From assembly GCF_000236035.1 (NCBI RefSeq), contig NZ_JH393257.1, positions 124,397 through 188,396 on the forward strand: DNA of 64,000 nt, given 5' to 3'. The stretch's first letter is position 1. The number at the start of each line of letters is the position of its first letter. The notes beneath the pieces are model-generated. The model was not told the DNA's origin. It saw only the letters and a list, made by a program, of their open reading frames with translations, and did not search any database. The translations under genes were made by a program, and so were the position numbers. This document shows, in pieces, positions 45,228-48,869 of the stretch. Source of the DNA: Vreelandella boliviensis LC1. GTDB taxonomy: Bacteria > Pseudomonadota > Gammaproteobacteria > Pseudomonadales > Halomonadaceae.

Positions 45228-47186
45228 TTAGTCCAAAGCATGATAGGTTGGCGATAAATCGAACTTTCTTTTGCGAAACTCCCGCGTATCGATGCCCCAT
45301 TTATTCAGACGCGAGGCAAGCGTAGTGGGCTTGATGCCAAGCAGCTCCGCCGCACCTCCTGCTCCTGAAACTTTACCTCCCGCCCGCTCCAGAGCGGCAA
45401 TCGTGCTCTCCCGCTGGCGCTGGCCCAGCGCATGTTCGGTCATCAGCGGTGTTTCACTTTTCTCCACGCTGGCCTGGGCTGACACGGGCGCCGGACGAGT
45501 ACGACCTATCGTACGCGGAGGCTCACCCAACAGCAGGTCATCAAACATCAAGCGCCGATCCTGGGTCACGATCACTTGGCGCTCAATGATGTTCTCCAGT
45601 TCTCGTATGTTCCCCGGCCATGGGTAGCGCTGAAGAATTTCCAATTGGGCGGGGGGAATGCGCACTCCCGGCTTATTAAATTTCAGGCAGGCACGCTGTA
45701 GAAAGTGACGCGCCAACAGCGGTACGTCTTCTATTCGTTTGCGCAACGGTACCGAATCAATCGGGAACACGTTGAGCCGGAAATAGAGATCCTCACGAAA
45801 GTGCCCCTCGTCGATCATGTCACGCAGTTCGCGGTTAGTAGCAGCAATCACCCGAACATCTACCTCGCGGGTACGGTTATCGCCCACCCGCTCAAACTGC
45901 TGATCCTGCAATACCCGCAGCAACTTACTCTGCAACTCCAGGGGAATTTCACCGACTTCATCCAAAAATAGCGTGCCGCCGTGAGCAAGCTCGAAGCGCC
46001 CTGGACGATCCTGTACCGCGCCGGTAAAGGCGCCTTTGACATGGCCAAAAAACTCGCTCTCAAAAAGGTCTCGGGGAATAGCCGCACAGTTCACCCGGAT
46101 CAGCGGTCGATCACTGCGCGAGTTACCGGCATGAATGGCGCGGGCAATCAGCTCTTTGCCGGTACCCGACTCGCCGCTGATCAGCACGTTGGCGCTAGTC
46201 GGTGCAACCAGCTCAATCTGTTGGATCAGTTTTGCCACCGCCGGGCTATTGCCGACAATATCGCGATGGTTAAGCTCCGCTTTTATCTCTTCTTGAAGGT
46301 ACTCATTCTCCAGCTCCAGACGCTGCTTGAGTGACTCCACCTCTGCAAGGGCATCACGCAACTGCTGCTCAGCGCGCTTGCGCTCGCGAATATCGCGAAA
46401 TAGCACCACTGCCCCAACCAAACGACCCATTTCAAAAATGGGGGTGCTGGTGTACTCAACAGGAATCGCCTCGCCATTTTTATGCCAGAAGACTTCGTTA
46501 TCGACATGATGCACCTGGCCGTCGCTAAACGAGGCGTGAATAGGGCACTGCTGCACTGGAAAATGGCTGCCGTCAGCGTGAGTATGGTGGAACATGAGGT
46601 GTGCGTCGTGGCCCACCATATCCTCGGTACTCCAGCCCAGAATGCGCTCAGCGGCGGGGTTAACAAAGGTGGTTTTACCCTCGGCATCCAGACCATAAAT
46701 GCCCTCACCGGCCGCGCTAAGAATCAGCTGGTTCTGCTTCTCAATGCGCTCAAATACCTGTTCGACTCGCTGCCAGCCCACTTCACCCTGGCGGTGCTGG
46801 CGGCCCAGCTCTGCTTTTGCCCGCCGCTGTTCGGCTTTATTACGATCAATCAGCGTTAATAGCAGCTGTTCAGTATCGTCGATGCACTGGGCATAAACCT
46901 CCACCCGGTAGGGCTGGCGCAGCATATCGAGTATCACCAAGTCATCCGTCCAGGCGGTTTTTTGGTCCAACGCCTCATCGGTAAAGCTGACCCATAGCGG
47001 CAGTGAAGCACTCAAACGATGACTAAAAGGCGCCTTTAGAGGGAGTGCTTCATCAATATTGAGCATCTCGCAGGCGGCAGGGTTAGCACCCAGTAGCTGA
47101 TCGGCAAAAGGGTCGACCACGATCATCGCCAGGGGTGAGAAGCCGCCCATCAAGGCTGCGGTGTGAGTGCGTTCTTGCTCATCCAT
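45228..47186 (-). CDS. PAS-containing sigma-54-dependent transcriptional activator
   Basis: This 652-aa enhancer-binding protein should drive sigma-54 promoters. A PAS-like domain lies at about 10-110, a second at about 145-265 (ILSAAGEGIYGLDAEG...NGEAIPVEYTSTPIF), then a coiled-coil linker. The AAA+ domain (about 310-540) has Walker A GESGTGKE, the sigma-54 contact loop GAFTGA and LFLDEVGEIP. A Fis-type helix-turn-helix ends the protein (GGAAELLGIKPTTLASRLNKWG). The start at 47186 has GAGG seven bases upstream; an ATG at 47192 is also possible. It is divergent from the FNT channel and cyanase genes and is their probable activator. What the PAS domains sense is unknown. Confidence 0.9.
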   Translation of the reverse strand: MDEQERTHTAALMGGFSPLAMIVVDPFADQLLGANPAACEMLNIDEALPLKAPFSHRLSASLPLWVSFTDEALDQKTAWTDDLVILDMLRQPYRVEVYAQCIDDTEQLLLTLIDRNKAEQRRAKAELGRQHRQGEVGWQRVEQVFERIEKQNQLILSAAGEGIYGLDAEGKTTFVNPAAERILGWSTEDMVGHDAHLMFHHTHADGSHFPVQQCPIHASFSDGQVHHVDNEVFWHKNGEAIPVEYTSTPIFEMGRLVGAVVLFRDIRERKRAEQQLRDALAEVESLKQRLELENEYLQEEIKAELNHRDIVGNSPAVAKLIQQIELVAPTSANVLISGESGTGKELIARAIHAGNSRSDRPLIRVNCAAIPRDLFESEFFGHVKGAFTGAVQDRPGRFELAHGGTLFLDEVGEIPLELQSKLLRVLQDQQFERVGDNRTREVDVRVIAATNRELRDMIDEGHFREDLYFRLNVFPIDSVPLRKRIEDVPLLARHFLQRACLKFNKPGVRIPPAQLEILQRYPWPGNIRELENIIERQVIVTQDRRLMFDDLLLGEPPRTIGRTRPAPVSAQASVEKSETPLMTEHALGQRQRESTIAALERAGGKVSGAGGAAELLGIKPTTLASRLNKWGIDTREFRKRKFDLSPTYHALD

Positions 47187-47242
47187 TGGCATACCTCATG
47201 GCTCAAGGTGTTCTCTCCTTAACCATTCAATTCCCGCGCCAC

Positions 47243-47297
47243 TTACGGCATTTCGTAAATAAAACAACGAAATATCGTTAATTACGATTTTCCGTAA
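47243..47297. promoter_or_regulatory. Three palindromic upstream activator sites
   Basis: TTACGGCATTTCGTAA (47243-47258) and TTACGATTTTCCGTAA (47282-47297) share TTACG-N6-CGTAA. Between them AACGAAATATCGTT (47266-47279) is a palindrome of different sequence but similar half-sites. They lie 80-135 bp upstream of the -24/-12 element, the normal range for a sigma-54 activator. Confidence 0.7.
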
Positions 47298-47376
47298 CAC
47301 GGTGAGCACCTCAAAACATCTTCGAATAAATTAATTAATCCATTAAAAACAGATAATTAAAAACATTACGCGCGGG

Positions 47377-47393
47377 TTGGCACGCAAATAGCA
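47377..47393 (+). promoter_or_regulatory. Sigma-54 (-24/-12) promoter for the FNT-cynS operon
   Basis: TTGGCACGCAAATAGCA matches the RpoN consensus (TTGGCACG-N4-TTGCA) at all but one defined position, with exactly ten bases between the invariant GG and GC. Confidence 0.75.
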
Positions 47394-47554
47394 AAGGTTA
47401 GGTGGATAGTGCGATAGCGCCACACGCTTAATCTCTTTTGCACCAGGACGGCGCAGCCATCGGTTCTATTGCTCCTATTTATTGCTCTTAGCAGGAAACA
47501 CTAAAACTCTTGGGTTAGGCGTTAATTAACCGAAATGACACAGGAGACATACTT

Positions 47555-48367
47555 ATGTCTTATCTAATGCCCAGTGAATTTGTCACCAAGCTGGTGGACC
47601 AGGGTGAGTCCAAAGTCTATATGGGCACCCGGGATACGCTTATCCGTTCCTTTATGGCGGGGGCGACCCTTGCGTTGGCGGTTATTTTTGCCATCACTAT
47701 CGCGACCCAAACAGGCAACTTTCTGATCGGGGCGCTGCTCTTTCCGGTCGGCTTTGTGATGCTTTATCTGATGGGATATGACCTGCTCACCGGGGTTTTC
47801 ACGCTGGTGCCTCTTGCATGGCTCGACAAGCGGCCTGGCGTCACACTACCCCGAATGCTCAAGTGCTGGGCGCTGGTGGGGCTCGGTAATCTCGGGGGCG
47901 CCCTGTTTATTGCAACCTTCGGCTACCTGAACTTCACCATGGGCGGCACTGAAGAGATCAACGCTGTCGGCCAAACGATGATGACCGTCGGTGAAAGCCG
48001 CACAGTGGGTTACCAGGAGGCGGGACTTGCCGGTTGGATCGTGCTTTTTCTGCGGGGCATGTTCTGTAACTGGATGGTATCCATGGGCGTGGTGGGCGCC
48101 GCCATCTCCACAACGGTTTCCGGCAAAATCATGGCCATGTGGATGCCGATTATTGTCTTCTTCTATCTCGGTTTTGAGCACTCCGTGGTCAACATGTTCT
48201 TGTTCCCGATTGGCCTCATGATGGGCGCTGACTTCACTCTGTACCAATACATTATGTGGAACGAAATCCCCACAGTACTGGGTAATCTGGTAGGCGGCCT
48301 GACCCTGGTTGGTTTGGTTCTCTACACCACCCACGTCCGTACTCAGCCCAAAAAAGTCTTTTCTTGA
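47555..48367 (+). CDS. Formate/nitrite transporter (FNT) family channel, candidate cyanate transporter
   Basis: This 270-aa protein has six transmembrane helices and the FNT fold signatures: LRGMFCNWMVSMGVV in the middle, GFEHSVVNMFLFPIG with the conserved pore His, and EIPTVLGNLVGG in the last helix. FNT proteins pass small monovalent anions such as formate, nitrite or hydrosulfide. AGGAGA precedes the ATG. It lies 61 bp before cynS in the same orientation behind a sigma-54 promoter. No nitrite reductase or formate gene is near, so cyanate is the inferred substrate. Confidence 0.9.
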   Translation: MSYLMPSEFVTKLVDQGESKVYMGTRDTLIRSFMAGATLALAVIFAITIATQTGNFLIGALLFPVGFVMLYLMGYDLLTGVFTLVPLAWLDKRPGVTLPRMLKCWALVGLGNLGGALFIATFGYLNFTMGGTEEINAVGQTMMTVGESRTVGYQEAGLAGWIVLFLRGMFCNWMVSMGVVGAAISTTVSGKIMAMWMPIIVFFYLGFEHSVVNMFLFPIGLMMGADFTLYQYIMWNEIPTVLGNLVGGLTLVGLVLYTTHVRTQPKKVFS

Positions 48368-48428: not shown

Positions 48429-48869
48429 ATGGATAAGCTCGAAATGCGTTATACCCTGCTCGCCGCCAAAGCACGTAAAAAAATGAGCTGGGATGATATC
48501 GGCAACGCGGTGGGCATGTCGCCGGTATGGGTGGCCTCCGCCTGCTACGGCATGAACAGCGCCAGCCAAGACATTGCCGATAAGCTTTGCGACACCCTCG
48601 GCGTAGAGAGCGATGTCGCCGAAGCCTTGGTGGCCTTCCCCACCAAGGCCTGGGATGAAGCAATCCCCCAAGACCCATTCATTTACCGCTTGTACGAAGT
48701 CGTCGGCGTTTACGGAGAGACTTTGAAAGACGTGGTACAGGAGAAGTTTGGCGACGGCATTATGAGCGCCATCGATTTCAGCATGGAAGTCGAAAAAATC
48801 GAAGACCCCAAAGGCGACCGGGTACTATTAACCTTGAATGGCAAATTTTTGCCTTATAAATCCTGGTAA
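48429..48869 (+). CDS. cynS: Cyanase (cyanate hydratase)
   Basis: CynS converts cyanate and bicarbonate to ammonia and two CO2. The 146-aa length and whole sequence match the family: an N-terminal helical domain (KARKKMSWDDIGNAVGMSPVWVASACYG) and a catalytic domain with Arg and Glu in YRLYEVVGVYGETLK and Ser in GIMSAIDF. AAAGGAG precedes the ATG. No carbonic anhydrase gene (cynT), cynX or cynABD is adjacent, and control appears to be by a sigma-54 activator rather than a LysR protein. Confidence 0.97.
   Translation: MDKLEMRYTLLAAKARKKMSWDDIGNAVGMSPVWVASACYGMNSASQDIADKLCDTLGVESDVAEALVAFPTKAWDEAIPQDPFIYRLYEVVGVYGETLKDVVQEKFGDGIMSAIDFSMEVEKIEDPKGDRVLLTLNGKFLPYKSW

Follow-up and report, generated by a model that had tools for sequence, protein, structure and literature searches.

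Three palindromes with the common core ACG-N6-CGT, at positions 47243-47297 of the window (the whole 64,000-nucleotide stretch of DNA analysed here), very probably form the enhancer of a divergent CynF-type PAS-AAA+ activator, which would bind them and drive the FNT-cynS genes from an RpoN promoter. They sit in the intergenic stretch 47193-47554, with the leftward regulator gene on one side and the rightward FNT and cynS pair on the other. The regulator gene (45228-47192, minus strand) encodes a 654-aa protein with two PAS-like domains, a sigma54 AAA+ domain and a C-terminal helix-turn-helix (HTH, GKVSGAGGAAELLGIKPTTLASRL), assigned to the CynF/NitA type from Pfam/NCBIfam models, trees and a structure model, and its position divergent from FNT-cynS is that of CynF/NitA-family genes. 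On the plus strand follow a 270-aa transporter of the FNT (formate/nitrite channel) family (47555-48367, PF01226) and cynS, encoding a 146-aa cyanase (48429-48869, TIGR00673 and PF02560). From its family and the cynS neighbour, cyanate is a candidate cargo of the FNT protein. A second FNT gene, 65% identical to that of the window, lies elsewhere in the genome (G000:C1:352822-353625), and no record in a plasmid search covered 80% of the regulator-FNT-cynS block.

We propose that three regulator dimers on the three dyads would seed one hexameric AAA+ ring, which the PAS sensor would switch on in response to a signal, probably cyanate or a related cyano-compound. The ring would then loop to RpoN polymerase at 47377-47393 and start the FNT-cynS operon, whose products would import cyanate, as the presumed FNT cargo, and convert it to ammonium and CO2.

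Control of cyanate genes by CynF is itself already known. In P. pseudoalcaligenes CECT5344, the available text of the primary report describes CynF as a Fis-like sigma54-dependent regulator encoded, as in the window, divergently from the cyanate operon; cynF is essential for cynABDS expression, a putative RpoN promoter precedes the first cyn gene, and cyanase is induced by cyanate and undetected with ammonium (PMC6627978). In place of the ABC transporter CynABD of cynFABDS, however, the window operon has an FNT-family protein, and because the evidence on CynF comes from an ABC-transporter operon, this counts against carrying it over to FNT-cynS. NitA, a Fis-family sigma54 regulator, is encoded divergently from nitBCDEFGH (Nit1C), again in the position seen in the window (PMC11049912, in the part available); the study of the nitrilase family describes the Nit1C cluster and, in its accessible text, is silent on its promoter (PMC1199592). 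In the accessible parts of two further sources, a survey of sigma54 promoters finds cyanate lyase enriched in alpha- and gammaproteobacteria (PMC12316311), and an RpoN study in Bradyrhizobium has cynS among the genes with lowered expression (PMC13207237). FNT genes beside cynS are known in nitrifiers, where a genomic survey, in the text available, calls a role in cyanate transport uncertain (PMC10753782), and nitrite uptake by one cyanobacterial FNT protein is reported, in the accessible part of the source, not to be inhibited by cyanate (PMC4390861). Within the accessible open-access literature, subscription papers and supplements aside, we found no description of a CynF/NitA operator or of the leader dyad discussed below. 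The window has a CynF-type control region in front of an FNT operon, an operator rule that extends over the CynF/NitA branch, and an unexplained NtrC-type dyad in the leader.

The three sites of the window are TTACGGCATTTCGTAA at 47243-47258 (site 1; core ACGGCATTTCGT, 47245-47256), AACGAAATATCGTT at 47266-47279 (site 2; core ACGAAATATCGT, 47267-47278) and TTACGATTTTCCGTAA at 47282-47297 (site 3; core ACGATTTTCCGT, 47284-47295). Their cores start at 47245, 47267 and 47284, giving steps of 22 and 17 bp. The initial annotation had pointed to two 16-bp sites sharing TTACG-N6-CGTAA, and a direct reading of the window indeed gives exact matches at sites 1 and 3; the third palindrome that it placed between them is present, but it is not of a separate kind, since it has the same ACG-N6-CGT core as the other two. 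The exact triple ACGN6CGT-N10-ACGN6CGT-N5-ACGN6CGT occurs once in the 4,208,238-base genome, at this locus, and with 3 mismatches allowed only two further places are found, against 5-6 for a reversed control. The 16-bp word behaves differently: its two exact genome copies are both here, but the reversed control pattern also occurs twice, and in the window alone three matches at up to one mismatch are within chance (19/100 shuffles). As at least one exact copy is present in 66 of 82 genus genomes and the control is equally frequent, a lone copy proves nothing. The rarity belongs to the array.

Among close relatives the sites follow the regulator. We searched 151 genomes of the family for FNT, and 11 had an FNT protein at least 91% identical to that of the window; six of these, the window genome (G000) included, have the divergent regulator beside FNT-cynS and five do not. 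A regulator match at E 1e-100 was absent genome-wide from all five, and present in the other 8 of the 13 genomes searched. The six regulator-linked loci keep the same site offsets and the -24/-12 element while the flanking bases vary; five carry all three sites, and one (G001) two of the three, its middle site being broken, so that site 2 is intact in 5/6. When the 15 adjacent FNT-cynS pairs among 30 FNT loci were compared, ACG-N6-CGT sites were found in all six regulator-linked pairs (the window's included), versus none of the nine pairs examined that lack a regulator within 1.5 kb (450 nt upstream). Loss of the palindromes from orthologous intergenic regions had been named beforehand as the outcome that would speak against the operator; they are conserved at the six regulator-linked loci of the genus. 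Even close relatives do not keep the outer TTA/TAA flanking sites 1 and 3; the part that stays constant is ACG-N6-CGT (summed consensus approximately YTACGAWWWWTCGTAR), and judged from these comparisons the outer letters are outside the operator code. The initial annotation also held that the operator of this regulator family could be read from the locus: the sites are indeed conserved with the regulator, but the word is ACG-N6-CGT and not TTACG-N6-CGTAA. From this pattern of conservation, the three sites are most likely gripped by the neighbouring regulator.

Several neighbouring observations come from the same genomes. At two loci of the genus (L065 and L066, in G048 and G016), a regulator about 82% identical to the window's and the same operator face a gene for a cynA-type ABC binding protein, so the type of transporter changes there under one control block. 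The regulator genes of G059 and G009 have one and two TAA codons, respectively, inside the matched stretch; a protein of 643 aa is seen for G059, making a shorter protein end possible rather than a broken gene.

The operator reaches well beyond the genus. With only the first 301 residues of the regulator as query, we searched the order (341 genomes) and a second genus (199 genomes), which from its nit and cyn gene order would be Pseudomonas, and took 49 loci (the 30 best from the order search and 19 from the further genus). Their 330-nt stretches contain 118 ACG-N6-CGT matches, versus a mean of 3.98 and a maximum of 11 in dinucleotide shuffles, and control spacers of 0-5 and 7-12 gave 0-8 matches each. 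At least one core is present in 48 of the 49 loci. Three exact sites occur in 24 loci but only two in 22; two loci have a single site and L071 has none, so not every locus shows the full array. At 75% protein non-redundancy, 18 loci retain 41 sites versus 1.4 in shuffles, with pair spacings of 17 (8), 18 (2), 22 (6), 23 (3), 39-41 (9) and 128 bp (1). The target genes of the protein-selected loci are a cynA-type binding protein, cynS-FNT, cynS alone, FNT-cynS or nitB-nitC. Nit1C-type loci have the same operator, with steps of 23/18 in 9/11, although their target genes differ from those of the window; among the presumed Pseudomonas loci with a cynA-type first gene, L218 and L219 have three sites, L220 two and L217 one exact site. 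The class labels cyn, nit and other used here and below derive from tblastn to reference proteins taken from the loci, with single examples checked against curated models: the cynA-type reference is an NMT1_2 (PF13379) ABC binding protein that receives no name from any NCBIfam model above its cut-off, and the NitB reference scores above the cut-off of TIGR04044. For NitC the reference is incomplete, and it matches the Nit6803-type nitrilase model TIGR04048 below the whole-protein cut-off.

The same association appears when no protein query is used. A scan with the DNA triple alone, over genome contigs of 84,980 species (257 billion bases), returned at least 118 loci; the 118 matches listed are an arbitrary sample of the total, to which related Woeseiaceae-like genomes contribute many. 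A regulator homologue (tblastn, E 1e-5) lies divergently on the 22-bp side in 100 of the 118 matches listed, and on the opposite side within 1.5 kb in none of them. The 18 remaining listed matches comprise two (L166, L183) whose regulator lies upstream in the same orientation, twelve near the left end of the stretch, with 13 to 815 nt available there and, in six, a cynA- or cynS-type gene next, and four with no regulator homologue in the stretch (L094, L095, L138, L180). The last four look like chance matches, for an 18-letter pattern is expected about 7 times in 257 billion bases at equal base frequencies. If only the 105 listed loci with at least 700 nt on the 22-bp side are considered, the strict rule finds the regulator in 93; in the others it is divergent with an alignment starting farther off (4), on the same strand upstream (2), or not found (4), and two have only about 800 nt there. 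Among the 118 matches listed, the first divergent gene by tblastn is cynA-type in 46, cynS in 10 and FNT in 3, with none recognised in 59, a group made up mostly of the Woeseiaceae-like branch and short stretches; cynS follows about 3.4 kb beyond the cynA-type gene in 13 of the 14 listed loci whose sequence extends 5.5 kb or more in that direction. Operator and regulator thus recur in one layout across Proteobacteria and reach a few Acidobacteria.

Some members of this set stand apart. A branch of the regulator family, mostly from Woeseiaceae-like or unclassified Gammaproteobacteria (L098, L104, L107, L121, L122, L159, L205 and about 30 related loci among the matches listed), has a different sensor half, mostly lacking the His/Cys cluster described below. 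It keeps the three-site operator, and its promoter usually follows site 3 at 60 nt. At the seven loci named, the product of the divergent gene is about 94 aa long and looks exported by eye; the 94-aa protein of L098 matched no Pfam or NCBIfam model. In the two acidobacterial loci (L166, L183) the second downstream gene encodes a 250-aa protein, which in L166 is an isochorismatase-family hydrolase (PF00857). L111 and L204 branch deeply among the regulators and have different neighbours, whose translations look like a short flavodoxin-like protein and an AhpD-like protein, respectively.

The predicted promoter of the FNT-cynS operon, TTGGCACGCAAATAGCA (47377-47393, plus strand), has GG at 47379-47380 and GC at 47391-47392, separated by 10 bases, and one mismatch to TTGGCACGNNNNTTGCW. 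In the TGGCAC-N5-TTGC frame it matches 9 of 10 letters at exact spacing, the departure being TAGC for TTGC. The -24/-12 element that had been claimed some 80-135 bp downstream with correct GG/GC spacing is therefore present: it starts 80 bp past the end of site 3, and 94 nt separate the core start of site 3 from TGG. Four matches to TTGGCACGNNNNTTGCW at up to two mismatches occur in the window, of which TTGGCACGCAAATAGCA is the best, versus a chance mean of 5.07, so there is no excess. The genome encodes RpoN (PF04552, one match, E 1.4e-68). Transcription would start near 47404, 12 bases after the GC, and the leader would be about 150 nt long. On the minus strand, a terminator-like hairpin (47366-47387) overlaps the promoter.

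Across loci, the element keeps its place relative to the operator. We counted promoters at 156 loci with a usable site 3, namely the 118 scan matches listed and 38 of the 49 protein-selected loci, the other 11 having no usable site pair and being excluded. A GG-N10-GC element scoring at least 7/10 lies within 30-180 nt of site 3 in 150/156 (matches listed included), versus 267/2,980 shuffled segments. A stricter form, TGGCA-N8-GC, was looked for in 30 protein-selected loci and was absent from five (L071, L088-L091). Distances from site 3 to the promoter fall into the classes 58-60, 68-72, 78-84, 94-95, 103-105 and 112-113 in 147 of the 150 (matches listed included), the exceptions being 47, 56 and 160, a pattern suggesting that the helical face may be constrained. 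In 41 clusters the best of the periods scanned from 9 to 13 was 11.75 bp (R 0.79); as the clusters are still related and the step sizes uneven, we claim no period.

The adjacent gene does encode an activator, as the initial annotation had it: a sigma54 activator with an AAA+ domain (PF00158, E 4e-73), divergent beside the sites, for which the proposed Fis-type HTH gains support from a weak PF02954 match (22.4 bits vs a cut-off of 22). Sigma54-activator matches above the Pfam cut-off number 12 in the genome, and eight, counting the window's, reach E < 1e-60. In a tree excluding the Woeseiaceae-like rows, 52 family rows form one clade (100/100) versus the seven other activators of the genome, and in a quick tree 135 family rows group with support 0.98 and none of the seven inside; both trees were built without CECT5344 CynF and NitA themselves. 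The quick tree holds one group of 78 rows (67 cyn, 8 unlabelled, 3 other; support 0.92), one of 16 (10 nit, 6 unlabelled; 0.22) and one of 37 (36 other, 1 unlabelled; 0.66), with L166/L183, L111 and L204 outside them. Regulators of the Nit1C type, about 51% identical to the window's, branch inside the family of the window regulator. A strict recognition-helix signature, [RK]PTTL-x-[SD]-R, is found in 111/135 regulators, six inspected of the 24 non-matching ones are close variants (PPTTL, KPTTLASK, KPTTLASRV), and the genome's seven other activators all lack [RK]PTTL.

For the sensor half, the structure model gives two PAS-like domains and a long joining helix (mean pLDDT 78.9, pTM 0.42). Foldseek with this model returned PAS sensors such as DosP, LOV-HK and FixL, and a profile search returned PAS chains; such neighbours do not identify the ligand. 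The His/Cys cluster HHxHxDG-x7-9-CP(I/L/V/M), in which Y may stand in for one of the first two H, is present in 47/68 cyn-type, 10/10 nit-type, 11/15 unlabelled and 3/44 other regulators. Judging from the targets, our guess is that it senses cyano-compounds. The motif also occurs in other PAS proteins.

Could the palindromes be sites of another regulator, NtrC or a general repressor for example, that lie beside this gene by chance? We consider this extremely unlikely. Such a reading could draw on how widespread the exact 16-bp word is in genomes of the genus and on the seven other strong sigma54-activator matches of this genome. However, the sites co-occur with the regulator in the FNT-cynS pairs (six of six against none of nine), the DNA-only scan returns the regulator branch in 100 of the 118 matches listed with fixed polarity, and NtrC has a different known site, TGCACC(A/T)4TGGTGCA (PMC4987338, in the part available). 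Since this genome has eight strong sigma54-activator matches in all, this particular neighbour is not expected by accident. A different question is which gene the neighbouring regulator serves from these sites. With site 1 only 51 bp upstream of the start codon of the regulator gene, the sites might mainly autoregulate that gene while something else drives the FNT-cynS promoter, a possibility to which we give very little weight: in nearly all loci the spacing between site 3 and the -24/-12 element of the divergent operon belongs to one of a few narrow classes, and a sigma70-like promoter for the regulator gene was looked for and not found. Autoregulation and control of FNT-cynS may coexist.

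An enhancer of three regulator sites has a precedent in NorR of E. coli, whose three sites upstream of a sigma54 promoter are essential and act as a scaffold for higher-order oligomers (PMC2941729, available text), and the three sites of the window, in a fixed arrangement, may work in a comparable way. NorR, however, has a GAF sensor and the site GT-N7-AC (PMC4987338, available part), whereas the window regulator has PAS domains and ACG-N6-CGT. FhlA, another sigma54 activator, uses the palindromic enhancer CATTTCGTACGAAATG (PMC4987338, available part), which has the letters TTCGT/ACGAA in common with the window site. The half-sites of FhlA are reversed, with CGT-ACG inside as against ACG-N6-CGT in the window. 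Its HTH is presumably similar to that of the window regulator.

Downstream of the promoter, the predicted 5' leader (47404-47554, plus strand) is more conserved than its surroundings. Its last 150 nt are 92.7-96.0% identical, with no indels, in five genus relatives, against 67-78.5% identity at the third codon positions of FNT and 67-83% across operator and promoter. At 47439-47455, centred at about +44 from the predicted start, lies an NtrC-type dyad, TGCACCAGGACGGCGCA, which accounts for only 17 nt of this conserved leader. Compared with the NtrC consensus (PMC4987338, in the accessible text), it has 11 of 13 fixed letters and a centre that is not all A/T, and it differs from GCAC-N7-GTGC by one mismatch. 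To call the control region complete, as the initial annotation did, was therefore too strong. The dyad is present at up to one mismatch in 12/12 Halomonadaceae loci aligned, whether FNT or cynA comes first (L150 was too short), mostly at +29 to +44; in two loci an insertion following the promoter moves it to +96 and +117.

We counted the dyad in leaders of at least 40 nt (15 of 150 loci, many alphaproteobacterial, fell below this and were dropped). Exact GCAC-N7-GTGC is found in 20/74 cyn leaders versus 0.35 in shuffles (max 2), and the dyad at up to one mismatch in 42/74 versus 5.2 (max 12). The 34 non-redundant cyn leaders give 8 exact (shuffles 0.12, max 1) and 17 at up to one mismatch (2.6, max 6). 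As exact controls in cyn leaders, other spacers gave 0 except N5 with 2, and five other palindromes gave 0; at one mismatch, other spacers gave 0-10 and other palindromes 1-14 of 74 (GTGC-N7-GCAC 14, CGCA-N7-TGCG 9). The dyad was found in 0/10 nit-type leaders, which sets Nit1C apart from the window, and in other-class leaders in 0/51 exactly and 8/51 at one mismatch (shuffles 2.9, max 7). The dyad is missing from half of the non-redundant cyn leaders, among them every alphaproteobacterial leader that was retained. Only 1/5 of the Pseudomonas-genus cyn loci scanned has it (L220, one mismatch, at the start site itself), and because the other four do not, the dyad is not a general answer to ammonium repression.

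The dyad lies inside the predicted transcript, in the most constant part of the region, and might instead mark an RNA hairpin or attenuator, which we regard as rather doubtful. The leader fold z-score is 0.10 and the predicted consensus fold shows a two-sided change in 0/37 pairs over 6 sequences, both being weak tests as the six sequences hardly vary; Rfam gave no family, with one chance-level match at E 0.83. Moreover, in the exact counts above the letters GCAC/GTGC return with a constant spacer of 7, with a smaller contrast at one mismatch. By eye, no short coding frame in the leader was kept across all six sequences.

If the dyad is instead an NtrC site, for which the genome has the protein (ntrC, TIGR01818), it is an unusual one, lying downstream of the promoter. 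Standard NtrC enhancers lie far upstream. As it sits mostly at +29 to +44, close for a looping enhancer, a role as roadblock or governor is as likely. The leader dyad suggests a second input, from nitrogen status; this is the least certain step of our account, and our confidence in the enhancer does not extend to it.

The five loci where closely related FNT genes occur without the regulator (L037, L039, L040, L041 and L042, in G017, G055, G073, G043 and G118) bear on the same theme. Their FNT proteins are 91-96% identical to the window's, four have cynS, the regulator is absent genome-wide, and NtrC-type dyads lie upstream of a TTGGCAT-type RpoN promoter; the activator of one operon has apparently changed. 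The NtrC consensus resembles both these upstream dyads and the leader dyad of the window. In four of the loci the upstream dyads are 30 bp apart (1-2 mismatches each) and G118 has one dyad with one mismatch, and this is no more than suggestive of NtrC control, the dyads being counted without a shuffle control and two-mismatch matches arising by chance at such lengths. We tentatively propose, giving it somewhat less than an even chance, that many gammaproteobacterial cyanate promoters are two-input gates, with a CynF hexamer on the 22/17 triple upstream reporting cyanate and NtrC on one leader dyad reporting nitrogen status; the regulator-free FNT-cynS operon would then be a natural swap of activator.

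To conclude, the sites of the window would be one instance of a CynF/NitA operator rule that can be put to the test: three ACG-N6-CGT palindromes at steps of 22(23) and 17(18) bp, with the 22-bp step nearer the regulator gene. From DNA alone, this rule finds the regulon, and it points to a new class of targets in Woeseiaceae-like genomes. The leader dyad is a candidate explanation for the ammonium repression of cyanate genes measured in P. pseudoalcaligenes. For the family as a whole, the rule would join the use of cyanate and the use of cyanide and nitriles under one regulatory code.
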